A stretch of 64,000 nt of DNA from Urechis unicinctus (Eukaryota; Annelida; Polychaeta; Xenopneusta; Urechidae): NCBI GenBank assembly GCA_034190875.2, contig CM067348.1, positions 24,200,975-24,264,974 of the forward strand. The letters are read 5' to 3'. The notes beneath the pieces were generated by a model, which made no database searches, was not told the origin of the DNA, and saw nothing but the letters and a program-made list of their open reading frames with translations. Positions 1 to 40,298 of the stretch are shown here, one piece after another; the first letter of the stretch is position 1, and each line of letters begins with the position of its first letter. Both the position numbers and the translations under genes were made by a program.

Positions 1-333
1 ACCATTACACTAGTTGAATTCGTCACTGTCAAGGGTTGAGTTCACCCAGAAAATGTATTAATTTATCGTCGACTTACATTTGGCAGATTATTCGACATGG
101 AGAAACAGGGTCCTCAAAGGCAAGACAGGCAACAGGCTTTGATTGAAATAACTCACTACACTCATTTATTCTGGAATTCACATTATAATCTAGATTTTAA
201 TAATGTTGATTATGCATGCATTCCTACAAATTATTAGATTACATCTCTGTGTTTCACTGCATCCTATGGGTTGTTGTGGCTGTAGTTAAGTCATTGTTGG
301 TGAACTTTGGCATGTTATACAAGAATCAGCAAG
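1..333 (+). other. Possible 5' non-coding exon of the MADS-like gene
   Basis: No long reading frame is present. A strong splice donor (AAG|GTAAGTG) follows base 333. An in-frame TGA at 519-521 sits just before the ATG at 528, so any spliced leader upstream would be untranslated. The assignment as a leader exon is inference; the transcription start and the acceptor are not identified. No convincing inverted repeat to the far side of the neighbouring gene pair was found by eye. Confidence 0.25.
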
Positions 334-527
334 GTAAGTGAATGACTTATTGTTGTTGTTAAGTCTCTTAACCTGAGTTGGTGTTCTACACATTTAGAGT
401 TAGATTTCTCTAAAGTTTAGGCTTACTTTTGATTAACGATTCACCATTTGCACCATGTAGTGCATTTTATACTCCAACCATTTGTTAATTGAGTATTAAA
501 GCTGGAATATTGACTTGTTGACCAAAA

Positions 528-1460
528 ATGACTACGCATGCTATATACAGATATGCTTCATGGAAGCACCATACTGGGCGCTGTGGATCCACATACGTAG
601 AAGATGCCACCCAACGTTCCAAGACGCGAGTTTCCAGAAGAAACACCCTTTTCAAGAAGGCACACGAACTTGTTGCGACCACAGGAGGGAGTGTGATTGT
701 TATTACAATGACTCCAAACGGAGATAAACATGTCTTCACCAGTGACAATGGAGACTGGGAGGCCCTGCAAACTACTGGATTAAAACTTGACACTGAAATC
801 CAGAGAATGGGATTTGTGGGGTCTCCTGGTGATCTGCAGCCTGTACCGATTGCCAAGGTAACGACGAAGAGTGGCAAGAGGATGACTGTGCATTTCTCGA
901 CCGAAATTTCACAGTCATCCTTCACACCCCCAGCTCCAAGACAGTCTACCTCCAACTCCACCACAGATGAGGTTGTTATTTCTGTGGAACCAGGTTATCC
1001 AACCCCAACCAAAACTTCCCCAGGAGATGGTAACTTCATCAAAACTCTAACACCCACATGTTCACAGATGCCACCTCCTATAAACTCTCAAACGACTCCA
1101 ATGCGGCCAGCAGCCAAGGGAGTCACGAAACGGAAGGTTGTCGGGTCTGAGGGTCGATTGAGGAAATCGTTACGAGCCACTCTTGATGCTCTCAAGAAGA
1201 CCCCTTACCCGACTACCATCACTTCAGAGGAGCCTGCCACTCCCCTCAGTAGGGAGCCTACCAGTCTCCTCGGTAAGGAGCCTGCCACCCTCCTTGGTGC
1301 CCTTTCTTCCGGCAAAACTGTCTGTCCCGTGTGTACGAGTAATTTTGATGACAATGAATCCATTTGGATATTTTGTTCTGCACAGTGTGGTATTGGTTAC
1401 CACAAAGAGTGTGTAAATTTACCAGTGGACTGCACATTTGTGTGTCTAGAATGTAGCTAG
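528..1460 (+). CDS. MADS-box-like and PHD-finger protein, probable transposon accessory ORF
   Basis: Single-exon frame of 310 residues; the start is the first ATG after the in-frame TGA at 519-521. Residues about 30-72 resemble a MADS DNA-binding domain, with SRRNTLFKKAHEL matching the KR..KKAYEL helix of SRF/MEF2, followed by a hydrophobic strand (SVIVITMTPNGDKHVF) like the MADS beta-strands. Residues about 110-260 are a Pro/Ser/Thr-rich linker with a basic patch (KRKVV). The C-terminus is a C4HC3 finger: CPVC, C-x3-C, H-x2-C, C-x2-C with PHD spacing, ending three residues after the last pair. PHD fingers commonly read histone tails. Its 3' end faces the 3' end of the RAG1-N-terminus-like gene about 400 bp away, an arrangement seen in two-gene transposons. 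Animals normally carry only SRF and MEF2 type MADS proteins, so this would be atypical. The domain calls are by eye; transposon origin is inference. Confidence 0.6.
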   Translation: MTTHAIYRYASWKHHTGRCGSTYVEDATQRSKTRVSRRNTLFKKAHELVATTGGSVIVITMTPNGDKHVFTSDNGDWEALQTTGLKLDTEIQRMGFVGSPGDLQPVPIAKVTTKSGKRMTVHFSTEISQSSFTPPAPRQSTSNSTTDEVVISVEPGYPTPTKTSPGDGNFIKTLTPTCSQMPPPINSQTTPMRPAAKGVTKRKVVGSEGRLRKSLRATLDALKKTPYPTTITSEEPATPLSREPTSLLGKEPATLLGALSSGKTVCPVCTSNFDDNESIWIFCSAQCGIGYHKECVNLPVDCTFVCLECS

Positions 1461-1867
1461 TGGATTTTTTTTTACATTTACATTGTGTATATGTTAATTG
1501 CCATGTTGAGTGATTTTTTTACTTATTGTTTGTATGGAATGTAGCTAGTTGACTTTTGACATATATTATGTACATATGTTTGATGCCAAATTGAATGATC
1601 TTTTAACTTATTATTTTATTAAAGCATAGTCATAGAAAATTGTTACCTTTTTCTGTCTCCAATTAAAGACATTGTTTGGCAAGCAAGACAATGAATGCAT
1701 ATAGATAATTTTACTGATCAACATCTGCAGCAGGATTGCATCATATCACATTTAGAATGAAAGTGAAAGAGGTACCTACAAATGTTAAATCTGGGATCGA
1801 ATGCATCAACACAAATCCATCAGTTTACAAAATTAACATCATCCACATACATCTGCTGGCCAATATT

Positions 1868-4800
1868 TTAAATCACAAAATCACTGCCACTGTTTTCCGG
1901 CATGTCTGTAGCCCGAGGCAATGTGCTTTGGTATTTCAAATATTCCTGGATCTCATCAAGAATTTGCATGTATTCACTCTTGAGCAGTCTATTTCGACTA
2001 GAGCTAGCAGACTCGACCCCTACAGAGAGAGTTCCGTCTAGAGCACTCTTAAAGACTGCCTTGATTTCGGCATCAACCACACATTGTAATCGAGACTCGG
2101 TCAATTCCTGCAGCTCCTTTATTGTCTTGGAGGATAAAGAGTTGAAGGCACTTTCCTCTTCCATTGTGACAAAGACTGGAGGTTCTTTGAAGGGGACAGC
2201 TCTCCTTGACACGCTCCGCATTGGTTCAAACTCCAAGTATGCGTCAAAATATCTGGCTCGCTTGTCCCTAGCTAGCTGGCAAAATTTTCCCACCGCCTGG
2301 CTCAGCCGCTGCCCTTCCAGAGAAATGACTTCGTTTTCTTTTTCAGGATGAAGGAGGTATTGTTTTTGTCTTAATAGGACCCTGAATGCTTCTATTTCTT
2401 TGAGCTTGTCTTGCTGCTTGATGTTTGCACTCTTAGGGTCGTTGATACCTAACTGCTTAAGAGTTTCACTGCGCAAGTCAGACAATACTGTGAAGTTATT
2501 GCAGACGGTCCTCCAATCCTCGCCAGTGGGGACCTTAGGCAACCATGACTGAGTTTGTTTATTGATTTCTTCCAAACGGAAATCAGGTCCCTGACCGGTG
2601 CCAGCACGCCCAGAAATGTTTATGGACCAACACTTCATAACACTCTCTTTCAATTCCTCAGGCATTCTCTCCAGCATGATGCTGTCAGTCATTTCAATTT
2701 CTCTATAGCTGGAGTGGGGTCGACCAGTCCAGATTTTTGCAATTTTGGCACGGGCTGCGTAAGCCAAATCATGACTGCCTTCCCTGATTCCCTTTCTGTA
2801 CAAAAGTTCCAGCACAAGGTCACCGATCATGGCATATGTTTTGTCATGGACATCAGCCATGAGAAATTTGAAAAAAGTGTCTGGAGAAAGGTCAGGCTGA
2901 TCAGAGGTCAGCTGGATCCTCACCCAAGGCAAAATCAGTTCTTTGGTTAGTGCCTCGCGTGCTATCGTACAAAGTTGCCATCCCTTGTGGTGGTCAGACA
3001 CTCGTTTGGCTGCATTCAGGGCATTGTCACTTCGAAAGTTCATGAGCTGTGCAAGGGCTTTGTAGAAAATAGGCCATGTCAACTCCACAAAACTCCTAAC
3101 CATATTCATTTCTAGATGGCCAGGCCCTGGGATCAAGAGTGCCCAGTCAAATTCAAGCACCATTGCAGCATCCTTTCCATTGTCTTTGTGCCTTTCTGTG
3201 TGTTTTGATGATGCTTCAATGCCAGAGAAACTCTCTTTGCACAATTCACACATGTAAGTGGAGAGGATGAGACGAGCACAAAGAATGTATGGTGAGCCAT
3301 CACAACATAAAAATACAAGCTCCCGATCCCCTCCATAACGACGGACTCCTGCCTTACGACCAATATTCCTTAGGACCACAGCACAGGCCTCATAAGAGCA
3401 GGGATTGACAAAAACTGGGTCATTGACACAATATTCTTTTGCCTCTTCATGTACAGGATGGGGTGTCTTATCAGTACACATCATTTCCATGTTGTCATCA
3501 TTGTTCTCTGGGAAAGACACTCTGAATGTTTTTGCTGTATGCGCCGTGGTTTTTGCTGGCCTCTCTTCCCATGTTCCACATTCATTTATCCCAAGAGCTT
3601 GTAGTTCGGCTTGCTTAAGGTTGACTTTGCAACTTGGGCACTTTATTTTGCTATTAGGTACATTGGCATCACCACAGGCTTGACAAGTCCTGAAATTTTC
3701 AGCATGCTTCTGTTGTTCAACCAGTGCATCGATCGGGTCCCTGAAAGGGGAACCATGTACAGTTTGGTTGGTTTGTTCAGCAGCCACTTCTGCTATAAAT
3801 TTTCATTAAGTGGGGATACAGATGGGCATCATAGTGAATTTTTTTTTACATTCCTATCTTGGTCAATTGTTCTCACACAAGCCACACTTCCTGGGTTCAG
3901 CATCCAAATCCCTGGCTTTAGGTCTTCTCTCCATTGCAAAGTGCCAGCCTTATCAGCTTCGAATTGGACAACCATTGTCACAATGTGGCACCGAAATTTA
4001 CTCTCAATGTTCACATTCCAGGCTCGGTGCATGATCTGGTTATTGTCAAATGCAAACACCACATCCCCAGGAATGGAAGAGTCATTTGACTTGGTGCCAA
4101 GATTATGCAAAAATCGTTTGGTGCTTGGGTAGCTGGCATGGGCTGCACTTGCACATAAAACTGTAAGTGCCAAACGACTACCAGTTACTGAATAGAGGAT
4201 GAGGCTGTCTCGGAAGTGCAGGGGCATAATAAGTCTGTGGGCGGAAAGATTCATTATTGACTCCACCGTTTTTGAAATTTTGTACACTGTTTGTTTCTGC
4301 GATTCCTTTGCAGCTTCTGTGTCACCGTATTTTAGGTCTTTGTCAGCAACACCCAGAAGGAAGCCCAAACACAGCTGGGTTGCGTTGGTTCATATATGAT
4401 GTCATATTTATGTCCAGCAACGATTTGATGCTGTGGCTCATATCGTAACAATCACGCTTAATTTGGCGATGCTGGGATTTCCCTAGTGTGTGGGCAACCA
4501 TTAACAGCTGTTTTGAGGTCATGTTCCCAAATATTCTGCTACCTTCATGACAAATCAGTTCTGCAATACTGTTCTCTGTTTGTGTTGCACATTCTGCCTG
4601 ATCCAGGCATGTGGCTGTGGCGGCATCTGCCTGCATAAACTGTGGGAGGGCTTGCGTGGTGGAACAGTTCATTTCTACAGTTGTTTGTGTAGAGGAATCT
4701 GTAAGGATAGTTATTCGCATCCTCTTTGATAGTCCTTCGTTTGCATATTCATCGCTGTCACAGGGATCCTTCACACACAAGTTATTAAAAATATAAGCAT

Positions 4801-5272
4801 ACAGTCATCAAATAATCAACACACATCTTATCTAGAAAAATTGATTTTGGACTAGGCAAATAATGTAATGACTGATACATGCCCAGCAACAGACTGCGAC
4901 ATGTAATCTCTCTGAAATATGAAACAAATGATATCATAAATACAATAACAGTACCTCATTTGAGGCAAACATGGTGCTCCTTGGGTTGACATCTTCCAAG
5001 CAATCTTGAGGTTGGTTTGGAAATGTAGCCAATTCTGGGAAGGTTGCTGTGGGTTTAGGTCCTCCTCTCTTGTACTTGATATCATGATGGCGCTTCAATG
5101 CACTTGCACATTTCAAGCAACATTTTTCTGGGTGAACTCCTGGTCTGTCATCCTTATCAACATTGACATGGTACAAGTTGAAGATGAGTCTTTTTGTGAT
5201 GGGTGTAAGCCTTCTAAGATTTGATGTCTTTAGTCCGCACACACGGCACAATATCTGTATGCCCTGATCCAT
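1868..5272 (-). CDS. RAG1 N-terminus-like zinc protein, probable N-RAG-TP-type transposon protein
   Basis: Model: exon 1 5272-4955, intron 4954-4769 (GT-AG, phase 0), exon 2 4768-3879, an 86-bp intron 3878-3793 (GT-AG, phase 1), exon 3 3792-1868, giving about 1,040 residues. Exon 2 needs one frame change near 4365 (NPAVFG to FLLGVADKD), either a single-base indel or an unrecognised splice. Residues 9-60 carry CRVCG, then a LYHVNVDKDD block and HPEKCCLKC, matching the order CRICG, F.IDV..D, IHP..FC..C in the RAG1 N-terminal region. Further on are FAFDNNQ, a zinc ribbon (CQAC, CPSC), FLCCDGSPY, a canonical C2H2 finger (CELC-x12-H-x3-H) and LIPGPGHLEMN; the two aspartates and the last block could be an RNase-H-type catalytic set. 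No RAG1 catalytic core is recognisable. A mobile element with a RAG1-N-terminus-like protein (N-RAG-TP) has been reported from Aplysia. Membership here is inference. Confidence 0.6.
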
Positions 5273-5305
5273 ACTGTGGTCATAGCTGCAACAGACTGAA
5301 ACCAC

Positions 5306-6743
5306 AAACTTGAATAAGTATTTCCTTCTTCATCAGTGTGATATCAGTTTTAAGAAGACAAATATAGGGGCGCTAATGCTTTGACAGGGTAGGGACCATC
5401 TCAGACCCTGAGCAGCTGTTTCAAGAATTAGTTGTCATAGTCTTTGAAATCACCAGACATCACCAGCCGTGCCTGTACCACCCCCCCCCACCCCCCCACC
5501 CTCAAAGATAATACAGATCAAAACATTTTATAATGATTATTGAGGTAGATCCTCACAACAGTGACTTATATACCCGAATCAAGGGAATGCGAGCGACAAT
5601 AACTAGTGATAACTGGTAAGACAATAATTGTTAATCTGGTAATGTAAAATGTGAGGTGATGTGGTTGAACCGATTCTGTTTCTATGGCCTAGAGGAAGGA
5701 GAAGTAGGATAATGATACTGATATGGACGGCTCAGTTAGTTTGATTTAATGACATGCGCAGATTGATCACAATTAACAGTGGGACCAAAAGATACATGGA
5801 AGTCTGAATAAAACCATCAGCATGACCTTGTTGGAAAACAATAAGCGGAAAATGGTAAAATCATTGTTATCTATAACGAAGGGGATAGGTACAATGCAAA
5901 ATATTGTGAAGACACATGCTAAAATACATTAATTATTCAAGATGGCACCAAAAAAAAATCATCGATTAAGTCGATATATAACATTGATTCCATAATCGCT
6001 CACCTGCATCGATGAAAAATGTTCATACAATTCCTTGCAACGTGAAATATCTTTGACGATGTGGCGATATATTTAAATCCCTCAAGATGGCGACCGGGAA
6101 TGTGTTCGCGCATGCGCGTACACTTCGATCGAAGTGATTTCCTTAAAAACAGAGCAACTCCCTCGATCGAGGTATATTGCCTCGTTCGAGCTGATGTCCT
6201 TAAATTAAAGTAAATGACTAGAATCGAGGTATGAGCTTGGACCTGGTGAAAGGTCGAGTGGTACGTCAACAATTCCGATAACCGACACAGTACATCCTGT
6301 CACCAGTGAAACGTAGTGAGCAAGCTGTGAGAGGACCAACAGGCCGGTAACTATTTGCACCGCTGGAATCTTGTTTTAGCGATTGGTTTAATTGCAGATT
6401 GCACGAAAGTAACTGGGAGATAACCATAAGTCAGGAAACATTAGAATACCAGGGACAGATCAACACCGATGCCGTCGTCGGCAAGAATACAACTGTCAGC
6501 TACCCCGCCTGATATTAGCGCCTGTATTTCACACCGGACTAAATATCCGACGTCGAGTGTGATTTTGCAGTGGTCATTACGCATGCCGGCGTCTCTATTT
6601 ATTGACGCTTCAGGAGATTCTCCCTCAGTATGTCGTACATTATAATAATATAATTTTGTCAACAGCTTGCTTTTTTTGACAGGGAATACTAACAGCTGGC
6701 GTTATCATTTGCTGTTGGGTGTGAATATTATCCCTAAGCCATC
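5306..6743. other. Spacer between the RAG1-N-like gene and EXTL2-like gene
   Basis: No supported gene. A C-rich run lies near 5480-5500 and a cluster of CGATCG palindromes at 6121-6172. The last few hundred bases must hold the 5' leader and promoter of the EXTL2-like gene, but no TATA box could be assigned. Confidence 0.5.
6121..6172. repeat. Cluster of perfect CGATCG-centred palindromes
   Basis: CACTTCGATCGAAGTG (6121-6136) and CCTCGATCGAGG (6161-6172) are perfect palindromes. A near copy CTCGTTCGAG follows within 20 bp, and half-site-like GAATCGAGGTA near 6220. A longer relative lies just 3' of the next gene at 8105-8122. Function unknown; they could be binding sites for a dimeric factor or remains of an inverted-repeat element. 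Confidence 0.5.
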
Positions 6744-7954
6744 ATGCACAACAAAACTCTGCTCAACATTTTTGTTGTGATCTCATTTGGGGTCATTTTC
6801 GTACTTTTAATTTTGTCTTCGAAACTTTCCTTGCCACGATTTTGTAACGGTTCAATAAACTGCACGTGTGAAGATAGCAGATGGAAGCGAGTTGTAACGG
6901 ACACTGGGGTTATACTCGTGGATAAGAATTCGTCTCAACAAATTCGTGTATGCGATATTCGTTCGGTACCGGAAGTGGACAGGCTAGCCTGGTCCCCTTA
7001 CCATATACCTCTCACGGCACCCAACGAAACATCCTTGACTGTTGTTATTCTAACTTACAACCGCGTGGATTTTCTCAGAAGAAGCATCAAGCATTATGAA
7101 CGGATGTCTGTCGTCGATAAAGTGGTAGTTTTGTGGAGTGACGTTGGTAACAAAGTTCCCGAGGATTTGATTTCACAAAACAAGAAGCCCGTCATTGTGG
7201 AACTACAACCCGCAAATCTTCTACGATTAAGATTTCGTCCATTGAAACCCATCAAAACTGAAGGTCAGTTGTTCGTGTGTATTCATGACTCATCTTCTTC
7301 CTTAACTGTATTGTAAAGTAACGACAGGCGTGAAAGTCGCAGCAACATATTTACGCCTGCTATTATATGATTTTAGCCGTGTTAAGTCTCGATGATGACG
7401 TCATATTAGCTGAGAATGACTTGCAACATGCGCTGGATGTTTGGAAGGTTAGTTTTATGATAAGACTAACATCGGCGATGATATTTATCCCCGCCATTGT
7501 ACACTATTACATCTTGGTCATTGCAATCATTTTCCAGAACCATTCCTATGGACTCGTTGGTTTCCTACCACGCGGCCACAAAGGGTATAACAAAGATAAT
7601 CTCGCCTATAGAGGAAAAGGTGGTCTTCCTTACAGCCTCATACTGACGGGAGCAGCCATTTTTCATGTCAACTATTTACAAATGTTCAACGAGACACTAC
7701 CACTCGGAATCCAGGAAACCGTAGATAAGCTCATGAATTGTGAAGACATTGCTATGAATTTTATGGTGAATCATCATTGTAAATGCGCTGGGGTATTCTA
7801 TGTTCGTACAAAGCAAAGAGTGCAGTTGCAGCGCAAACCTGGGAATATGCTACATTCTCGTCCTGGGCACTATGCCAACAGGAGTATTTGTCTCAGACAG
7901 TTTCTGAGTTATTACCCCAACCTGCCTCTTCAAGAAGTTCGATGTGTATACTGA
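6744..7954 (+). CDS. EXTL2: EXTL2-like alpha-1,4-N-acetylhexosaminyltransferase (GT64)
   Basis: Three exons with GT-AG sites and matching phases: 6744-7263, 7377-7447 and 7538-7954, giving 335 residues, the usual EXTL2 length (about 330). Residues 5-25 form a hydrophobic segment after a short N-terminus, a type II Golgi/ER signal anchor. The GT64 domain begins at LTVVILTYNRVDFL and contains KVVVLW, the metal/UDP-sugar binding LSLDDDV motif (D179-D181, within the 71-bp second exon), VGFLPR and the acceptor-side NCEDIAMNF block (C265, E266, D267). Several Asn-Gly-Ser/Asn-x-Thr sites lie in the luminal part. The family transfers GlcNAc/GalNAc to the glycosaminoglycan linkage tetrasaccharide and tunes heparan sulfate chain initiation. 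Introns are only 113 and 90 bp. All visible motifs are intact. Confidence 0.93.
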
Positions 7955-9407
7955 CTTAACGGCATTGATATCTTAAGTTTGCTTGAGTGGCTTGCATAGT
8001 AAGAAAAGGTTGAGACTTGTTAGGTAGTAACAAGCTCGATGAATCATGTTGTCCATGTGCCTGTGTGTCAGCTCTTATCAGAAGACGACCACAGAAGGAA
8101 GTATGTACCTCGATCGAGGTACGTACTTCGTTCTGCTTATAACTGGGGATCAACGCCTCCAGCAACAACGCGCTGATGTTGTAATGATGATGCATAAGGA
8201 TGTTTGTGATTCTTGAACAGCATGTCTTACGCGCCCTAGCCCTCTGACTAGACGAGGAGCAAACTGTACAGCCAACCGAGCAGGGACTACAAGCAATCAG
8301 GTTGTCACATCGAGGGCACAGCCTGTAGGTCGAATAAAAATATGTTAGCCCAAAAAACTGTATTGAGTGAATATCCTTTGGTGTTATCCGTTTACATGCT
8401 AATGTTAAACAAGATACAATGTGACAGCTAGAATTATGATGTTCTATCAAAAACGAATCGGTACATGAATATCATATTGTGTGAAATATCTACCCCATGA
8501 GAAATACATTGATTTTATATGTACTTTTCCCTTTTAAAGTCCAGGGATCCTTAATGTCCAATGTGTTGGTATGCCCACTGGCTCAAATGAATGTATTGCA
8601 TCACAAATCATAGAATATATCAAATGATCGTGCTTATTACATGTTTTTTCTTTTAAAAACATCGCTATTACCCATGCTCCTAACGTGCCTAGAGTTCCCA
8701 CAAGTGCTTTCGTACTATTCAGATTTGTAATAAAACAATGAATACAGCACATCATCAACTGTCTTTTAGGAGGTTGATGGGGAGAAAATCACTGCTTTCG
8801 CGGTTATCCCACAACTGTGAGCCGAATGGTGGATTAAGGAGAGGAAGATAAGGCTAGGATGCTCACATGGGCCGACATTCGCTCAATCAGTGATTGTTCA
8901 ACAGATAATTTAATCCATGCTGCTGTTAGTAGCAAGAGAAACTGTCACTCGCTCATAAATCAGTTGTCATCACGCTCATTGATTTGGGATGTCTATTAAG
9001 ACGCCAGCATTATCAACACATTATCATGATGATATTATCGACATGTTTTCACTGCATCTTGGCTGGTGTGCATTGAATTGCCGAGTTGGTGTGTGCGTTA
9101 ACAATCTAATTACAATGACATGGCATCGTCATTTTCATTGCAATGATATTTCATGCACGTGAATACACACCATGTGACTATAATTCCATAAACAATCCCT
9201 CTAATGTGTGTTTTGAACACCAAGGATTACCTACACATTTCTGTCTCTCATCGGGCTCCTCCGTGTTCAAGCGCTTATTTAACCACACAAGCAGCGAATT
9301 GTCTCATTCGTTCAGGCGTTCCTATTGTTACAGTGAAGGCATGGATCTCATCCGTGGTTTATCGCTTAAATTTGTATAATCGAATGGGATATTTTTCCAT
9401 TTTTCCA
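7955..9407. other. Spacer without supported genes
   Basis: Only short frames with no recognisable domains were found. The one notable structure is the palindrome at 8097-8130. The 3' UTR of the EXTL2-like gene lies in the first part; no clean AATAAA was placed. Confidence 0.5.
8097..8130. repeat. Long palindrome around CTCGATCGAG
   Basis: GTACCTCGATCGAGGTAC (8105-8122) is a perfect 18-bp palindrome, and with a few mismatches symmetry extends over about 34 bp. It shares its core with the palindromes upstream of the EXTL2-like gene, so the gene is bracketed by the motif. Confidence 0.6.
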
Positions 9408-9566: not shown

Positions 9567-10394
9567 CCACCAATCAGACGCGGTTTTGACGCCACACCAT
9601 CATTTACGAATCAATACCATTGTGTAAGAACAGACGTGTGTTTACAAGGGCTTGTGGCTCGATTTATCAATTATAGGGAGCCAATAACTGACTAGCTTCG
9701 CATCGCATGACCACACTCGTGATCAATATCCTTCGTGGTATATCCTAGCATCGAATAGTCGCAATCCATAAATAGCAAATTCTTTCATTGGAACAATCAA
9801 TTGGTCAAGGTCGTCCGAAGAGTAAAGCTGCTGAAGAACGTGTGCGGGACGACCTTTGTGTTACATGACATTCATTCACGTTTTTAAGTTGTCGAAGCAC
9901 ATGATAGCACGCACCATTGGGAGTTCTGTTTGAGGCACTAAATGAACATCTACGCGCAATAACAAGCGCCAGTTTGAAATTCCATGTTCCTATGATTTTG
10001 GGATAATATTATGTCATGAAGAACGATAGCTGCCGACAGATAAGTGAGCTCCGTTGGCGCTAAACCAATGACCATACGAGCATAGTGACTGGACGATTTA
10101 CAAACGGTCTATATGGAAAAAACAAAGTAATCAATGCGTTATTACAGGGCGGTTTATAACGAAATAAGAACATAGCAGGTTGTATGTGTGGATATAGAAT
10201 AATACACATCAAGAAGCTATAACACGTTAGCGTTTTGGGTTGCCACAGCAACAGTTGTAAGATGTATGAAATCATAAGTATCAGGTGGCTTGAAATGTAT
10301 CTAACTGTTAATAACCGTTTATGACAAACTATTAAATAGCTGATTAAACCAATAGCCATGACATATTTGCCACGACATACTTGCCACGTCATTT
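9567..10394. other. Spacer without supported genes
   Basis: No domain-bearing frame, splice-consistent exon or strong repeat was seen here. Confidence 0.45.
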
Positions 10395-11012
10395 TTGCCA
10401 CGACATATGGCATGATGGCATGACGTGCGCATGACATGTGGCATGACATGCGCTATGACATGTGCCATGACATATGGCATGACATGTGGCATAACATATG
10501 ACATGACATGTGGCATGACATATGGCATGAAATGTGCTATGACATGTGGCATGACAAGCGCTATGACATGTGCTATGACATGTGCTGTGCCATGACATGT
10601 GGCATGACATGTGGCATGACATGGCATGACATGTGGCATGACATATGGCATGACATATGGCATGACATGTGGCATGACATGTGCCATGACATGTGTAATG
10701 ACATGTGCCATGGCATGTGCCAAGACATGTGCCATGACATATGGTATAACAAGTGGCATGACATGTGGCATGACATATGGCATGACATATGGCATGACAT
10801 GTGGCATGACATGTGCCATGACATGTGTAATGACATGTGCCATGGCATGTGCCAAGACATGTGCCATGACATATGGTATAACAAGTGGCATGACATGTGG
10901 CATGACATGTGCCATGACATGTGCCATGACATATGGTATGACATGTGGCATGACATATGGCATGACATGTGCCATGACATGTGGCATGACATATGGTATG
11001 ACATGTGCAATG
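10395..11012. repeat. 12-bp satellite (ATGACATGTGGC) with 132-bp higher-order repeats
   Basis: Tandem ATGACATGTGGC/ATGACATATGGC/ATGACATGTGCC units run for about 620 bp. A block containing GTGTAATGACATG, GCCATGGCATGTGCCAAG and GGTATAACAAG occurs twice, offset by 132 bp (11 units), so a multi-unit segment was duplicated. Long frames on both strands (MTCGMTYG, MSCHMSCH type) are products of the 12-bp period. The unit is rich in near-palindromic CATG/ACATGT. Confidence 0.95.
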
Positions 11013-11286
11013 ACTACAGATTCAGTTATGTTCTTGATTTTAAAATAATATACGTTTTTTTTTACAAAACCAACATATCAACCAATAACAAAAACTGACA
11101 ATCATTTCTTGAACATCGATAATTGAACACAGAATGAAACTTCTTTATGCAGGCTAATATCATGCACCTTCGGTGTGTGTTTTAGCGTGAATATAAGTTA
11201 AATAACATACAGACAACAATAAAAGAAACAGCATTTTGGCAAAAAAATGTAATACATTAAAATTGTGGGTGGACGAAGAAGGCTAC

Positions 11287-33910: not shown

Positions 33911-34129
33911 TGTGACATAATATAGCACGTCCTTTGCAGATAGCATACAGGAATAGACGCTCACAGGTAGTATACCCATCTTCAATGTGTGCCATTACTG
34001 CATTTCAATGGTGCTTACAACACGTCATCAAATTACCGGGCAGTCAGTGAAAGGAGAATCACTTCGTTCGTAATGCAGCTGTATGGAGGTCCTTCTGGCG
34101 TAAATGATGTATCAAGCAATAGTCGCAAA

Positions 34130-37100
34130 AGCGAAAGAGCAGACTAAAACAAAAGAGGAGACTAAAACAAAAGAGAAGACTTAAGAAAAATAGGAAACTA
34201 ATGCAAAAGAGGAGACTAAAACAAAAGAGAAGACTTAAGAAAAATAGGAAACTAATGCAAAAGAGGAGACTGAAGCAAAAGAGGATACTAAAACAAAAGA
34301 GGAAACTAAAGCAAAAGAGGCGACTAAAACAAAAGAGGAGACTAAGACAAAAGAGGAAACTAAAGCAAAAGAGGAGACCAAAGCAAAAGAGGAGACTAAG
34401 ACAAAAGAGGAAACTAAAACAAGAGAGGAGACTAAATGAAAAGAGGAGACTAAAACAAAAGAGGAGACTAAAGCAAAAGAGGAGAATAGTGCAAGAGAGG
34501 GAGTAAAGCAAAAGAGGGAGTAAAGCCAAAGAGGAGACTAAAACAAAAAAAGAGGAGACTAAATCAAAAGAGAAGACTAGAGCAAAAGAGGAGACTAAAA
34601 CTAAAAAAAACAAAAGAGGAGACTAAAGCAAAAGAGGAGACTAAGACAAACGAGGAAACTAAAACAAGAGAGGAGACTAAATGAAAAGAGGAGACTAAAA
34701 CAAAAGAGAAGACTAAAGCAAAAGAGAGACTAGTGCAAGAGAGGGAGTAAAGCAAAAGAGGAGACTAAAACAAAGAGGAGACTAAAGAAAAAGAGGAGAC
34801 TAAATCAAAAGAGAAGACTAAAGCAAAAAGAGGAAAAAAAGAGGAAAAATAAAGCAAAAGAGGAGACTAAAGCAAAGGAGACTAAAGCAAAAGAGGAGAC
34901 TAAGACAAACGAGGAAAACTAAAACAAGAGAGGAGACAAAATGAAAAGAGGAGACTAAAACAAAAGAGAAGACTAAAGCAAAAGATGAGACTAGTGCAAG
35001 AGAGGGAGTAAAGCAAAAGAGGAGACTAAAACAAAGAGGAGACTAAAGAAAAAGAGGAGACTAAATCAAAAGAGAAGACTAAAGCAAAAGAGGAGACTAA
35101 AACTAAAGAGGAAAATAAAGCAAAAGAGGAGACTAAAGCAAAAGAGGCGACTAAGACAAAAGAGAGACTAAAACAAGAGAGGAGACTAAAGCAAAATAGG
35201 AGACTAAGACAAACGAGGAAACTAAAACAAGAGAGGAGACTAAATGAAAAGAGGAGACAAAAACAAAAGAGAAGACTAAAGCAAAAGATGAGACTAGTGC
35301 AAGAGAGGGAGTAAAGCAAAAGAGGAGACTAAAACAAAGAGGAGACTAAAGAAAAAGAGGAGACTAAATCAAAAGAGAAGACTAAAGCAAAAGAGGAGAC
35401 TAAAACTAAAGAGGAAAATAAAGCAAAAGAGGAGACTAAAGCAAAAGAGGCGACTAAGACAAAAGAGAAGACTAAAACAAGAGAGGAGACTAAAGCAAAA
35501 TAGGAGACTAAGACAAACGAGGAAACTAAAACAAGAGAGGAGACTAAATGAAAAGAGGAGACTAAAACAAAAGAGAAGACTAAAGCAAAAGAAGAGACTA
35601 GTGCAAGAGAGGGAGTAAAGCAAAAGAGGAGACTAAAACAAAGAGGAGACTAAAGAAAAAGAGGAGACTAAACAAATGAAGAAAATAAAGCAAAAGAGCA
35701 GACTAAAACTAAAGAGGAAAATAAAGCAAAAGAGGAGACTAAAGCAAAAGAGGAGACTAAGACAAACGAGGAAACTAAAACAAGAGAGGAGACTAAATGA
35801 AAAGAGGAGACTAAAACAAAAGAGGAGACAAAAGCAAAAGTGGAGACTAAAACTAAAGAGGAAAATAAAGCAAAATAGGAGACTAAAGCAAAAGAGGCGA
35901 CTAAGACAAAAGAGGAGACTAAAACTTAAGAGGAAAATAAAGCAAAAGAGGAAACTAAAGCAAAAGTGGCGACTAAGACAAAAGAGGAGACTAAAACAAG
36001 AGAGGAGACTAAAGCAAAAGAGGAGACTAAGACAAACAAGGAAACTAAAACAAGAGAGGAGACTAAATGAAAAGAGGAGACTAAAACTAAAGAGGAGACT
36101 GAAGCAAAAGAGGAGACTAAAACAAAAGAGGAGACTCAAGCGAAAGAGCTAGTAAAGCAAAAGAGGGAGTAAAAGCAAAAGAAGAGACTTAAACAAAGGA
36201 GGAGATTCAAGCAAAAGAGAGGAGAGTAAAACAGATAAGAGAGTAGTAAAACAAAAGGGGAGACTGAATCAAAAGAGGAGAATAAAACAAAAGAGAAAGA
36301 GGAGACTAAAATAAAAGAGGAGACTAAAACAAAAGAGGAAACTAAAACAAACGAGGAGACTGAAGCAAAAGAGGAGACTAAAACAAAAGAGGAAAATAAA
36401 GCAAAAGAGGAGACTAAAACTAAAGAGGAAAATAAAGCAAAAGAGGAGAGTACAGCAAAAGAGGAGACTAAGACAAACGAGGAAAACTAAAACAAGAGAG
36501 TAGACTAAATGAAAAGAGGAGACTAAAACAAAAGAGGAGACTAAAGCAAAAGTGGAGACTAAAACAAAAGAGGAGACTAGTACAAGAGAGGAGACTGAAG
36601 CAGAAGAGGAGACTAAAACAAAAAAGGAGACTCAAGCAAAAGAGGAGACTAAGACAAACGAGGAAACTAAAACAAGAGAGGAGACTAAATGAAAAGAGGA
36701 GACTAAAACTAAAGAGGAGACTAAAGCAAAAGAGGAGACTAGTGCAAAAGAGGAGACTGAAGCAAAAGAGGAGACTAAAACAAAAGAGGAGACTCAAGCG
36801 AAAGAGAGAGTAAAGCAAAAGAGGGAGTAAAGCAAAAGAGGAGACTTAAACAAAGGAGGAGATTCAAGCAAAAGAGGGAGTAAAACAGAAAAGAGACTAA
36901 AACAAAAGGGGAGACTGAATCAAAAGAGGAGAATAAAACAAAAGAGAAAGAGGAGACTAAAATAAAAGAGGAGACTAAAACAAAAGAGGAAACTAAAACA
37001 AAAGAGGATACTGAAGCAAAAGAGGAGACTAAAACAAAAGAGGAAAATAAAGCAAAAGAGGAGACTAAAACAAAGAGGAGACTGAAGTAAAAGATGATAC

Positions 37101-39060
37101 CAAATCAAAAGAGAAGACTAAAGCAAAAGAGGAGACTAAAACTAAAGAGGAAAATAAAGCAAAAGAGGAGACTAAAGCAAAAGAGGAGACTAAGACAAAC
37201 GAGGAAACTAAAACAAGAGAGGAGACTAAATGAAAAGAGGAAACTAAAACAAAAGAGAAGACTAAAGCAAAAGAGGAAACTAGTGTAAGAGAGGGAGTAG
37301 AGCAAAAGAGGGAGTAAAGCAAAAGAGGAGACTAAAACAAAGAGGAGACTAAAGAAAAAGAGGAGACTAAATCAAAAGAGAAGACTAAAGCAAAAGAGGA
37401 GACTAAAACTTAAGAGGAAAATAAAGCAAAAGAGGAAACTAAAGCAAAAGTGGCGACTAAGACAAAAGAGGAGACTAAAACAAGAGAGGAGACTAAAGCA
37501 AAAGAGGAGACTAAGACAAACAAGGAAACTAAAACAAGAGAGGAGACTAAATGAAAAGAGGAGACTAAAACTAAAGAGGAGACTGAAGCAAAAGAGGAGA
37601 CTAAAACAAAAGAGGAGACTCAAGCGAAAGAGCTAGTAAAGCAAAAGAGGGAGTAAAGCAAAAGAAGAGACTTAAACAAAGGAGGAGATTCAAGCAAAAG
37701 AGGGAGTAAAACAGATAAGAGAGTAAAACAAAAGGGGAGACTGAATCAAAAGAGGAGAATAAAACAAAAGAGAAAGAGGAGACTAAAATAAAAGAGGAGA
37801 CTAAAACAAAAGAGGAAACTAAAACAAACGAGGAGACTGAAGCAAAAGAGGAGACTAAAACAAAAGAGGAAAATAAAGCAAAAGAGGAGACTAAAACTAA
37901 AGAGGAAAATAAAGCAAAAGAGGAGAGTACAGCAAAAGAGGAGACTAAGACAAACGAGGAAACTAAAACAAGAGAGTAGACTAAATGAAAAGAGGAGACT
38001 AAAACAAAAGAGGAGACTAAAGCAAAAGTGGAGACTAAAACAAAAGAGGAGACTAGTACAAGAGAGGAGACTGAAGCAGAAGAGGAGACTAAAACAAAAA
38101 AGGAGACTCAAGCAAAAGAGGAGACTAAGACAAACGAGGAAACTAAAACAAGAGAGGAGACTAAATGAAAAGAGGAGACTAAAACTAAAGAGGAGACTAA
38201 AGCAAAAGAGGAGACTAGTGCAAAAGAGGAGACTGAAGCAAAAGAGGAGACTAAAACAAAAGAGGAGACTCAAGCGAAAGAGAGAGTAAAGCAAAAGAGG
38301 GAGTAAAGCAAAAGAGGAGACTTAAACAAAGGAGGAGATTCAAGCAAAAGAGGGAGTAAAACAGAAAAGAGACTAAAACAAAAGGGGAGACTGAATCAAA
38401 AGAGGAGAATAAAACAAAAGAGAAAGAGGAGACTAAAATAAAAGAGGAGACTAAAACAAAAGAGGAAACTAAAACAAAAGAGGAGACTGAAGCAAAAGAG
38501 GAGACTAAAACAAAAGAGGAAAATAAAGCAAAAGAGCAGACTAAAACTAAAGAGGAAAATAAAGCAAAAGAGGAGAGTAAAGCAAAAGAGGAGACTAAGA
38601 CAAACGAGGAAACTAAAACAAGAGAGTAGACTAAATGAAAAGAGGAGACTAAAACAAAAGAGGAGACTAAAGCAAAAGTGGAGACTAAAACAAAAGAGGA
38701 GACTAGTACAAGAGAGGAGACTGAAGCAGAAGCGGAGATTAAAACAAAAAAGGAGACTCAAGCAAAAGAGGGAGTAAAGCAAAAGAGGGAGTAAAGCAAA
38801 AGAGGCGACTTAAACAAAGGAGGAGATTCAAGCAAAAGTAGGAGTAAAGCAGAAGAGAGACTAAAACAAAAGGGGAGACTGAATCAAAAGGTGAGAATAA
38901 AACAAAAGAGAAGGACGAGACTAAAATAAAAGAGGAGACAAAGACAAAATAGGAGACTAGTGCAAATGAGGAGACTAGAGCAAATGAGGAGACTAGAGCA
39001 AAAGAGGAGACTAAAACAAAAGAGGAGAACATGCAAAAGAGGAGACTAAAACCAAATAAA
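34130..39060. repeat. 5-kb polypurine satellite (GAGGAGACTAAAACAAAA) with 1.48-kb higher-order repeats
   Basis: Units of about 18 bp, GAGGAGACTAAARCAAAA, run for nearly 5 kb with 17- and 19-bp variants. The + strand is almost entirely purine apart from the CT of each unit and scattered C. Diagnostic variants show higher-order structure: the segment with CGAAAGAGCTAGTAAAG occurs at about 36141 and 37625 (offset 1,484). GGGGAGACTGAATCAAAAG recurs at about 36257, 36907, 37734, 38384 and 38872, with two matching 650-bp intervals. Lys/Arg/Gln-rich + frames and Leu/Phe/Ser/Cys-rich - frames are by-products, broken wherever a unit is not a multiple of three. Confidence 0.97.
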
Positions 39061-40298
39061 AGATGTATCAAATACATAAATGTCTGTGGAAGGTGGCTAT
39101 CAATGTTTGTTTACAATTTGTGTTGAGTTTGTTGTTATTGTTCGTGCTGTTCTGTTGATGATATGGCAAAATATCTTTATCACACTACGTGGAACTAGTT
39201 TGTTACAGCATACATGATTTCCCTTATAGACGCGAGGCTCCAGATAACAACATCGGCGCTCGGAAGCGGCTCGGAAGCGGCTAGGAAGCGGCTAGGAAGC
39301 GACTCGGAAACGGCTCGGAAGCTTGCATAAGCAACCGAGCGCTTGTGATGTCACTGGTGTGTGGTCAATTTCCCTTCGTGTCATTATATAGATAGATACC
39401 AATATTGTCGATCGTATGTAACGAGATAATCATCACATTTTTGTCGTACGGATTAACCGTATATCTTGCTGAACTGAAGCAGATATTTCAAGGAGCTGCT
39501 TGTCTCAAAACCTGAGGTCGTTCTATCGCTGCCCTAATCTCCAGAAGTCAATATCATACCACCCACGCTCGCCGAACAAGTGCACTGCGTAAAAAAAAAA
39601 ATCAAGGATAGACCAAATATCAAAACATATAGCTGGCAGCAGGCGGAGGACATATGTACGGGTTGACATAGAGGGCGTCTGGTCTGGGTGCCTGGGAGTG
39701 TTAAAGGGGTATGGAGTGGAGACGAAGGTGTGTATCTGAATTAGTCATATGTCAATAACTTCGATCCAAGTAAAAACATTCCCGTCAACCATTGAGTTGC
39801 GAACAATAAGCTGGTGCTTTCTCACGCCGACGTGCCTACCGTGAAATAAAAGTATATATTTACTTAGAGGTTTGACGCCAGGTGTAACGGTTTATCTGAT
39901 CCTGTCAAGACCGACTCATGAATAGTAAAGCTTGGAAAAAAACCTTTTATGAGCCAATAAATGGTTATTTTCCAGCCGAGCCTCCCTGGCGTATATCCAA
40001 ACCGCAAGCCACATGTGGACACAGTATAGAGCTTGTCTCCACATTGGACTGATTTTGAAGGATGTCATTAAACGTGGTCACACTAGGGCAATCTAGGTTC
40101 GGTTTACATGGTTCGTGAAGCATACCATGTAACGTCTGGGATGCGAGTCGAGCCGTGTAACAGAGCTTGCCAATTGCACGGCATGTGACCGCTTCCGGAT
40201 CCGCATGGATCTACAGGTGCCGTCACTGGCCATAACATGTTGATTGAAACACGATACATGCAGGTTTTCTACAAACGTCACCGGTCAATTTGTTTGTA
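39061..40298. other. Spacer with a short 11-bp tandem repeat
   Basis: CGGAAGCGGCT/AGGAAGCGGCT units repeat about six times at 39258-39322. Otherwise no gene recognised. Confidence 0.45.

Follow-up and report, generated by a model that had tools for sequence, protein, structure and literature searches.

A convergent pair of genes in the annelid Urechis unicinctus, one encoding a protein with a DUF6589 domain and the other a protein that combines a MADS box with a PHD finger, makes up the coding content of a ~6.7-kb DNA transposon of the cut-and-paste type. The pair lies in a window of 64,000 nucleotides (assembly GCA_034190875.2, contig CM067348.1, positions 24,200,975 to 24,264,974 of the forward strand; coordinates below are those of this window). 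Here, an initial annotation made from the sequence had placed two genes meeting tail to tail with about 400 bp between their stops; both genes are where it put them, with stops ~410 bp apart. We identify the pair as transposon cargo because it is present in many copies, because these have exact ends with ~24-bp inverted repeats and 5-bp target duplications, because both genes lie inside the repeated unit, and because the same pair recurs in six subfamilies. Taken as a whole, the element probably couples a transposase to an accessory protein that binds DNA and reads chromatin, in a RAG-like layout that is mostly convergent. The assignment of the minus-strand gene body to DUF6589, the inclusion of the pair in a repeated element, the right end at position 6245 and the left end ~494 bp before the window begins all go beyond the initial annotation.

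1–6245 (no strand): in-window part of the transposon, as aligned with copies C10 and C17
6222–6245 (minus strand): right terminal inverted repeat, reading inwards CAGGTCCAAGCTCATACCTCGATT, identical at 20 of 24 positions to the left terminus of other copies; then GTGAA
528–1460 (plus strand): partner gene encoding the MADS-PHD protein; a single open reading frame in one exon, 310 amino acids
1871–5272 (minus strand): putative transposase gene (DUF6589), in open reading frame pieces 5272–4958, 4804–4343, 4389–3829 and 3802–1871, with frame breaks at homopolymer runs

The element has defined ends and duplicates 5 bp of target DNA

The first base of the window corresponds to base 495 of the C17 element, which is 6,736 bp long. 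Since the left end therefore lies outside the window, a search for terminal inverted repeats within it (1–527 versus 5273–6737) performed no better than shuffles, and it was copies elsewhere that supplied the ends. Termini were compared in 13 copies, including that of the window; among the six subfamilies described below (A to F), these end and duplication data concern A, to which the window copy belongs. The terminal inverted repeats are ~24 bp long (CAGGTC...GACCTG), and left and right termini agree at 20 of the 24 positions. Of the 13 copies, 12 share an identical right end (...GCTTGGACCTG, window position 6245), with different DNA beyond each; it is missing from the C6 copy. The left end (CAGGTCTGAGCTCATACTTCGAT...) was located in seven of the 13; it is rearranged in C10a, and is not within the compared stretch for C1, C2, C13, C6 and the window. 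All seven copies in which both ends could be read are flanked by a perfect 5-bp target duplication (TTTAA, TTTAA, ATAAG, TGTAT, GTGAA, TTCAA and TTGAT). Thus, the shared terminal repeats and target duplications that the initial annotation had suggested looking for were both found, through other copies in the genome.

A different left end, CAGGCTG, was considered and rejected, as it is the edge of an insertion in a single rearranged copy, C10a.

The two genes occur together in six subfamilies

We searched the 1.19-Gb genome (926 contigs) with the 644-residue transposase reading frame, which gave at least 90 matches (69 of 281 candidates scored), and with the partner, which gave at least 131 (128 of 443 candidates scored). 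At the DNA level, 18 of the 29 other loci fetched match the window, with 86–99% identity over the longest aligned piece, some of them being two halves of one copy; two loci (L002 and L003) span essentially all of 368–5302, both genes included. Positions were then compared for all 90 transposase matches and the strongest 78 of the 131 partner matches, leaving aside the weakest 53, which are mostly frames of ~100 amino acids like those of the MADS-only repeat described below. The transposase matches fall into 58 clusters, 33 of which have a convergent partner within 4 kb downstream (gaps of 334–2,684 bp) and none a partner on the same strand, where uniform placement would predict ~0.012 convergent pairs. 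No partner match was found for the other 25 clusters. At least one of these (C15:4893582, locus L026) nevertheless has a convergent PHD reading frame, so that 33 of 58 is a lower bound. Conversely, 28 of the 61 partner clusters are not adjacent to any scored transposase. The co-occurrence elsewhere on which the initial annotation had hinged was therefore observed many times over.

These figures bear on the simplest alternative, that the two are host genes with no connection to each other, or belong to different elements, and are adjacent by chance. The broken frame of the window transposase and the solitary clusters of either gene are what such a reading would lead one to expect. Nevertheless, it sits poorly with the observed excess of convergent pairs and with the retention of the pair in six subfamilies, and is refuted by bounded, repeated copies in which a common pair of ends, with target duplications, encloses both genes; we therefore give it practically no weight.

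The pair is kept in subfamilies A (the window), B (L008–L012), C (L016), D (L025), E (L023) and F (L024), whose transposases are 39–47% identical to that of the window. The layout of the partner is constant across all six, comprising a MADS block, a linker of the form PTPxK...GDxNF (degenerate in D) and a C-terminal PHD finger, even though identity to the window partner is just 28–34% in B, E and F. Five subfamily B copies, compared with L009, are mutually 99.2–99.5% identical, and open frames persist among them (a transposase of 1,017 amino acids in L009 and a partner of 343 in L008; L012 has a split partner frame). This near-identity, together with the open frames, implies that both genes were recently mobile, and makes excision and targeting assays feasible. 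In subfamily A, the partner reading frame is full length in C3, C5, C17 and C10a (99–100% identity) and in C10c (89%), with a ratio of non-synonymous to synonymous substitution (dN/dS) of 0.31 between the window and C10c. The breaks in the window transposase frame fall at homopolymer runs whose length varies among copies, which decay or assembly error would explain equally well. Scans of viral and prokaryote contigs returned no relative.

The DUF6589 protein as a probable DDE transposase

The body of the minus-strand gene scores above the Pfam cut-off for DUF6589 (PF20231; E = 2.7e-7, 30.1 bits versus 27), and sequence signals point to a probable intron between ~4957 and 4770. Precomputed annotation places this domain on six of 24 relatives; in our own Pfam scan of nine relatives, only P0005 exceeded the DUF6589 cut-off, and P0014 gave no match. 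The following features were assigned within the gene:

5108–5248 (minus strand): N-terminal zinc module, CRVCG...HPEKCCLKC (RAG1_imp_bd E = 0.2, zf-AD E = 0.015, both below cut-off)
4036–4050 (minus strand): FDNNQ, proposed first catalytic Asp, from sequence and predicted structures
3290–3304 (minus strand): CDGSP, proposed second catalytic Asp, from sequence and predicted structures
3188–3250 (minus strand): CxxC...HxxxH zinc module in the interval between second Asp and Glu; its profile resembles C2H2 fingers (ZNF462 E = 0.014)
2558–2584 (minus strand): DFRLEEINK, proposed catalytic Glu within a helix, from sequence and predicted structures

Structures predicted for two relatives (P0003 and P0022) display an RNase-H fold with the D, D and E in place. 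Among the families included in the comparison, to which this ranking applies, the best fold matches were the P element, Hermes and ISCth4, followed by RAG1, with the P element and Hermes ~4 Z above RAG1. Foldseek on its own returned nothing at E ≤ 0.001 for the predicted transposase, and searches of its sequence against solved structures gave no P element or Hermes hit. On the strength of the models, we strongly infer that the DUF6589 protein is a DDE transposase of the RNase-H-fold type, which would act on the CAGGTC ends and insert with a 5-bp stagger.

DUF6589 is a family without a stated function, for which a mobile unit, ends and a partner are established here in the case of the window element. 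The family would thereby gain a likely role, as a DDE transposase whose ends and target duplication are defined. We found no mention of DUF6589 in a literature search of mostly open-access scope.

The partner protein carries a MADS box and a PHD finger

Three features were assigned within the partner gene:

597–734 (plus strand): MADS box, residues 24–69 (Pfam SRF-TF E = 4.1e-8, 33 bits versus a cut-off of 26)
999–1037 (plus strand): conserved linker PTPTKTSPGDGNF, in the partners of all six subfamilies, degenerate in D
1323–1454 (plus strand): PHD finger, CxxC...C..C....H..C...CxxC, from Pfam, ligand alignment and profile

What the initial annotation had called 'MADS-like' is a genuine MADS box, above the Pfam cut-off and, as a six-subfamily profile, matching the solved structures of SRF (3e-8), MCM1 (9.7e-8) and MEF2D (3.6e-7). 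SRF-TF scores of individual partners include 8e-6 for L023 (25.6 bits, just under the cut-off) and 0.0018 for L024, the B, C and D frames in that scan having little or none of the MADS block. The homology to MADS-box proteins such as SRF, MCM1 and MEF2 is at the level of the domain (profile E-values of 3e-8 to 1e-6), which here is fused to a PHD finger and borne on a transposon; the element thus shows that a transposon of animals can carry a MADS box.

The PHD finger of the window partner alone is below the Pfam cut-off (E = 0.026, 15 bits versus 24), as are those of the individual partners (4.8e-5 to 0.0096). At the family level, however, the PHD-type finger proposed earlier holds. All eight C4HC3 ligands, and the Trp preceding the third Cys, are invariant in eight aligned partners (the six subfamilies and near copies). 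Against solved structures, the six-finger profile matched KDM5B (4.5e-7), BPTF (7.8e-7) and KDM5A (8.9e-7), with RAG2 far lower (0.0044, no individual stretch over threshold). With the co-occurrence and terminal repeats described above, this family-level match means that no result which the initial annotation had counted as fatal to its proposal was obtained.

A single-sequence search of public predicted proteins with the partner returned nothing at E ≤ 0.01, whereas an alignment of five partners retrieved five proteins (P0026–P0030, 3.9e-52 to 2.3e-23). Three of these have both domains: P0026 exceeds both Pfam cut-offs, P0027 that for PHD only and P0028 that for SRF-TF only. As these three lie on other public contigs, the MADS-PHD architecture also exists outside this genome. 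P0029 and P0030 match in the MADS part only, and four weaker hits (P0031–P0034), two of them from plants and one from a fungus, match through the MADS box alone.

Several partner genes contain internal repeats. In the 631-residue partner of subfamily C (L016 with L058), a long array of in-frame repeats rich in Pro and Ser separates the linker from the PHD finger, and arrays are found at the same place in the subfamily D partner and in P0027. An imperfect direct duplication (1438–1527 and 1526–1616, ~75–78%) covers the 3' end of the window partner gene and is present in other copies too.

Subterminal palindromes and a proposed role for the partner

Just inside the ends lie palindromes of the type CYTCGAWCGARG:

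6123–6172 (no strand): 12-bp palindromes of CYTCGAWCGARG type, at 6123 and 6161, spacing 38 bp

The C17 element has five such sites (≤2 mismatches), 17 and 55 bp from its left terminus and 54, 73 and 111 bp from its right; at both ends, the two clearest are spaced 38 bp apart. The five sites in the terminal 150 + 150 bp compare with a shuffle mean of 0.057 (maximum 2 in 2,000) and with three in the other 57,755 bp of the window, a count that is descriptive only, since the consensus was picked after the ends had been inspected. The element has a single CArG-like site, mid-way along its length, and a search of it for MEF2-type sites found none.

These data suggest a dedicated accessory role for the partner. 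While the transposase carried out DDE chemistry at the CAGGTC ends, with a 5-bp stagger on insertion, a MADS dimer would occupy the 12-bp palindromes just inside each end and the PHD finger would read the tail of histone H3, probably methylated at K4. The PHD fingers of KDM5B, BPTF and KDM5A read methylated K4 using the Trp before the third Cys. It is because these are the best matches, and because this Trp is invariant here, that we propose the same ligand. MADS box and PHD finger could then jointly tether the ends to open chromatin during pairing, or steer insertion there, by analogy with the supposed role of the RAG2 PHD finger.

The main rival is that the partner has no part in insertion and instead binds the palindromes to control the expression of both genes, either regulating the element's transcription or countering its silencing. 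Both genes run inwards from the ends, placing the palindromes 5' of each; MADS proteins are usually transcription factors; and PHD readers also work in transcription. Yet the palindromes lie ≤111 bp from the termini and the start codons ~1 kb inside, and placement so near the sites of cleavage better suits end binding. We therefore regard a regulatory role as possible but clearly the weaker proposal, and retain the accessory protein as our preferred reading.

Relationship to RAG and other transposon families

The initial annotation had matched the N-terminal zinc module to RAG1 and likened the gene pair to RAG1/RAG2. We take the pattern CRVCG...HPEKCCLKC, and its fuller form in P0003 with an extra Cys pair (...FQPHCNQCTVC), to fit that of RAG1. 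This pattern of cysteines and histidines stands; the statistics behind the match are weak, with scores below cut-offs and close to those of shuffles. For RAG1_imp_bd (cut-off 23.3 bits), the window module scored E = 0.2 (11.7 bits) and P0003 E = 0.0027 (17.8 bits), and zf-AD fits about equally well (0.015 and 0.054, respectively). A four-sequence profile ranked a RAG1 sequence first of 5,001 targets by a tiny margin (14.7 bits versus 14.4 for the best shuffle), P0003 alone gave 13.4 versus 13.2 bits against RAG1 and shuffles, and RAG1 fell outside the best four when the window sequence was used by itself. The three other subfamilies with a readable N-terminus, namely B (L009 and L012), D (L025) and E (L023), bear a C...FCxxC module in place of the RAG1-like form, and the two of these N-termini that were tested gave no RAG1 match. 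Nor did the transposase hit RAG1 among PDB sequences at E ≤ 10. Kinship of the element to RAG1 is, on these sequence comparisons, unproven; the zinc module alone may share descent with RAG1.

A perfect 16-nt inverted repeat (38–53 and 5124–5139), the right copy of which encodes the VHPEK of the zinc module, is probably due to chance.

The likeness to the RAG pair holds for layout: RAG and RAG-like elements (RAGL, ProtoRAG), as described in PMC7204232, share the convergent tail-to-tail pair, the PHD-bearing partner, 5-bp duplications and a zinc module ahead of the DDE core. It fails for the core, which is nearer to the P element and Hermes in fold and is without a RAG1 sequence match, and for the partner, which has a MADS box; Pfam scans found no kelch domain in the window partner, in seven other partners or in P0026–P0030. 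In addition, the ends begin with CAG and not CAC.

The P element makes 8-bp duplications. Like Hermes, a member of the hAT group, it differs in this from the 5-bp duplications here and resembles our element in predicted fold only; to our knowledge, neither the P element nor hAT has a MADS-PHD partner. As hAT duplications of 8 bp are accompanied by 5–7 bp in some hAT lineages, according to PMC12730594, the 5-bp duplication does not by itself bar hAT. The same source gives as traits of the CMCT clade CA..TG ends, a 2–5 bp duplication and a C(2)C + H(3-4)H motif between D and E, all of which the element displays in form (its ends, 5-bp duplication and CxxC...HxxxH).

It could be argued that the RAG/Transib/Chapaev lineage (the CMCT clade) gave rise to the element, which would have kept the ancestral N-terminal zinc module, the 5-bp duplication and a PHD partner in convergent orientation while its core diverged. 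Several observations count against this: the fold ranking and the absent RAG1 hit, N-terminal scores under cut-off and near shuffles in a module whose form is lacking from B, D and E, a CxxC...HxxxH motif that resembles an ordinary C2H2 finger, the missing kelch domain, and ends beginning with CAG as opposed to the CAC of protostome RAG-like elements (PMC7204232). We consider such descent unlikely.

N-RAG-TP of Aplysia is reported, in PMC8355894 and PMC2996935, as a mobile element encoding a protein like the RAG1 N-terminus, and could be a member of the present superfamily. This invites a more speculative synthesis, which we find rather doubtful as a whole, though less so than CMCT descent: a superfamily of two-gene animal transposons, so far undescribed, would have reached the RAG1/RAG2 plan independently, with a histone-reading, DNA-binding partner guiding a DDE transposase into open chromatin, the zinc module being the source or sister of the RAG1 N-terminus and N-RAG-TP the first hint of this unplaced half of RAG1. 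The element in any case offers an independent comparison for a question raised by V(D)J recombination, namely why a transposase travels with a convergent PHD-bearing partner. We found no description of a transposon with a DUF6589 transposase and a MADS-PHD partner in a search whose scope left subscription literature, work on AcademH and Repbase Reports largely outside, and an earlier name for the element is possible.

Non-autonomous relatives and surroundings of the element

Three loci (L090, L091 and L092, at about 1,800–4,660) share a repeat of ~1.9–2.8 kb, ~94% identical among the three copies, which retains just a 102-residue MADS-like frame of subfamily C type between CAGGTC- and CCTG-type ends and is probably a non-autonomous derivative. 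The genome contains many more MADS-only matches with frames of ~100 amino acids. A scan of the non-autonomous repeats for CAGG ends with 5-bp duplications found no duplication.

Within the window, a 44-bp near-palindrome at 8092–8135 (…ACCTCGATCGAGGT…) corresponds to the subterminal palindrome of the non-autonomous repeats, and is likely a remnant terminus close to the adjacent gene. A fragment of a glycosyltransferase family 64 gene (exostosin-type; Pfam E = 5.6e-12) lies at 6744–7316, ~500 bp past the right end of the transposon, its frame continuing to ~7954. Further along, a tandem repeat region at 10319–11098 has several frames open on both strands (MSCHMSCHM-like runs), and ~6 kb at 34001–40000 is purine-rich with very strong strand asymmetry (AT skew 0.43–0.76, GC skew 0.26–0.44).

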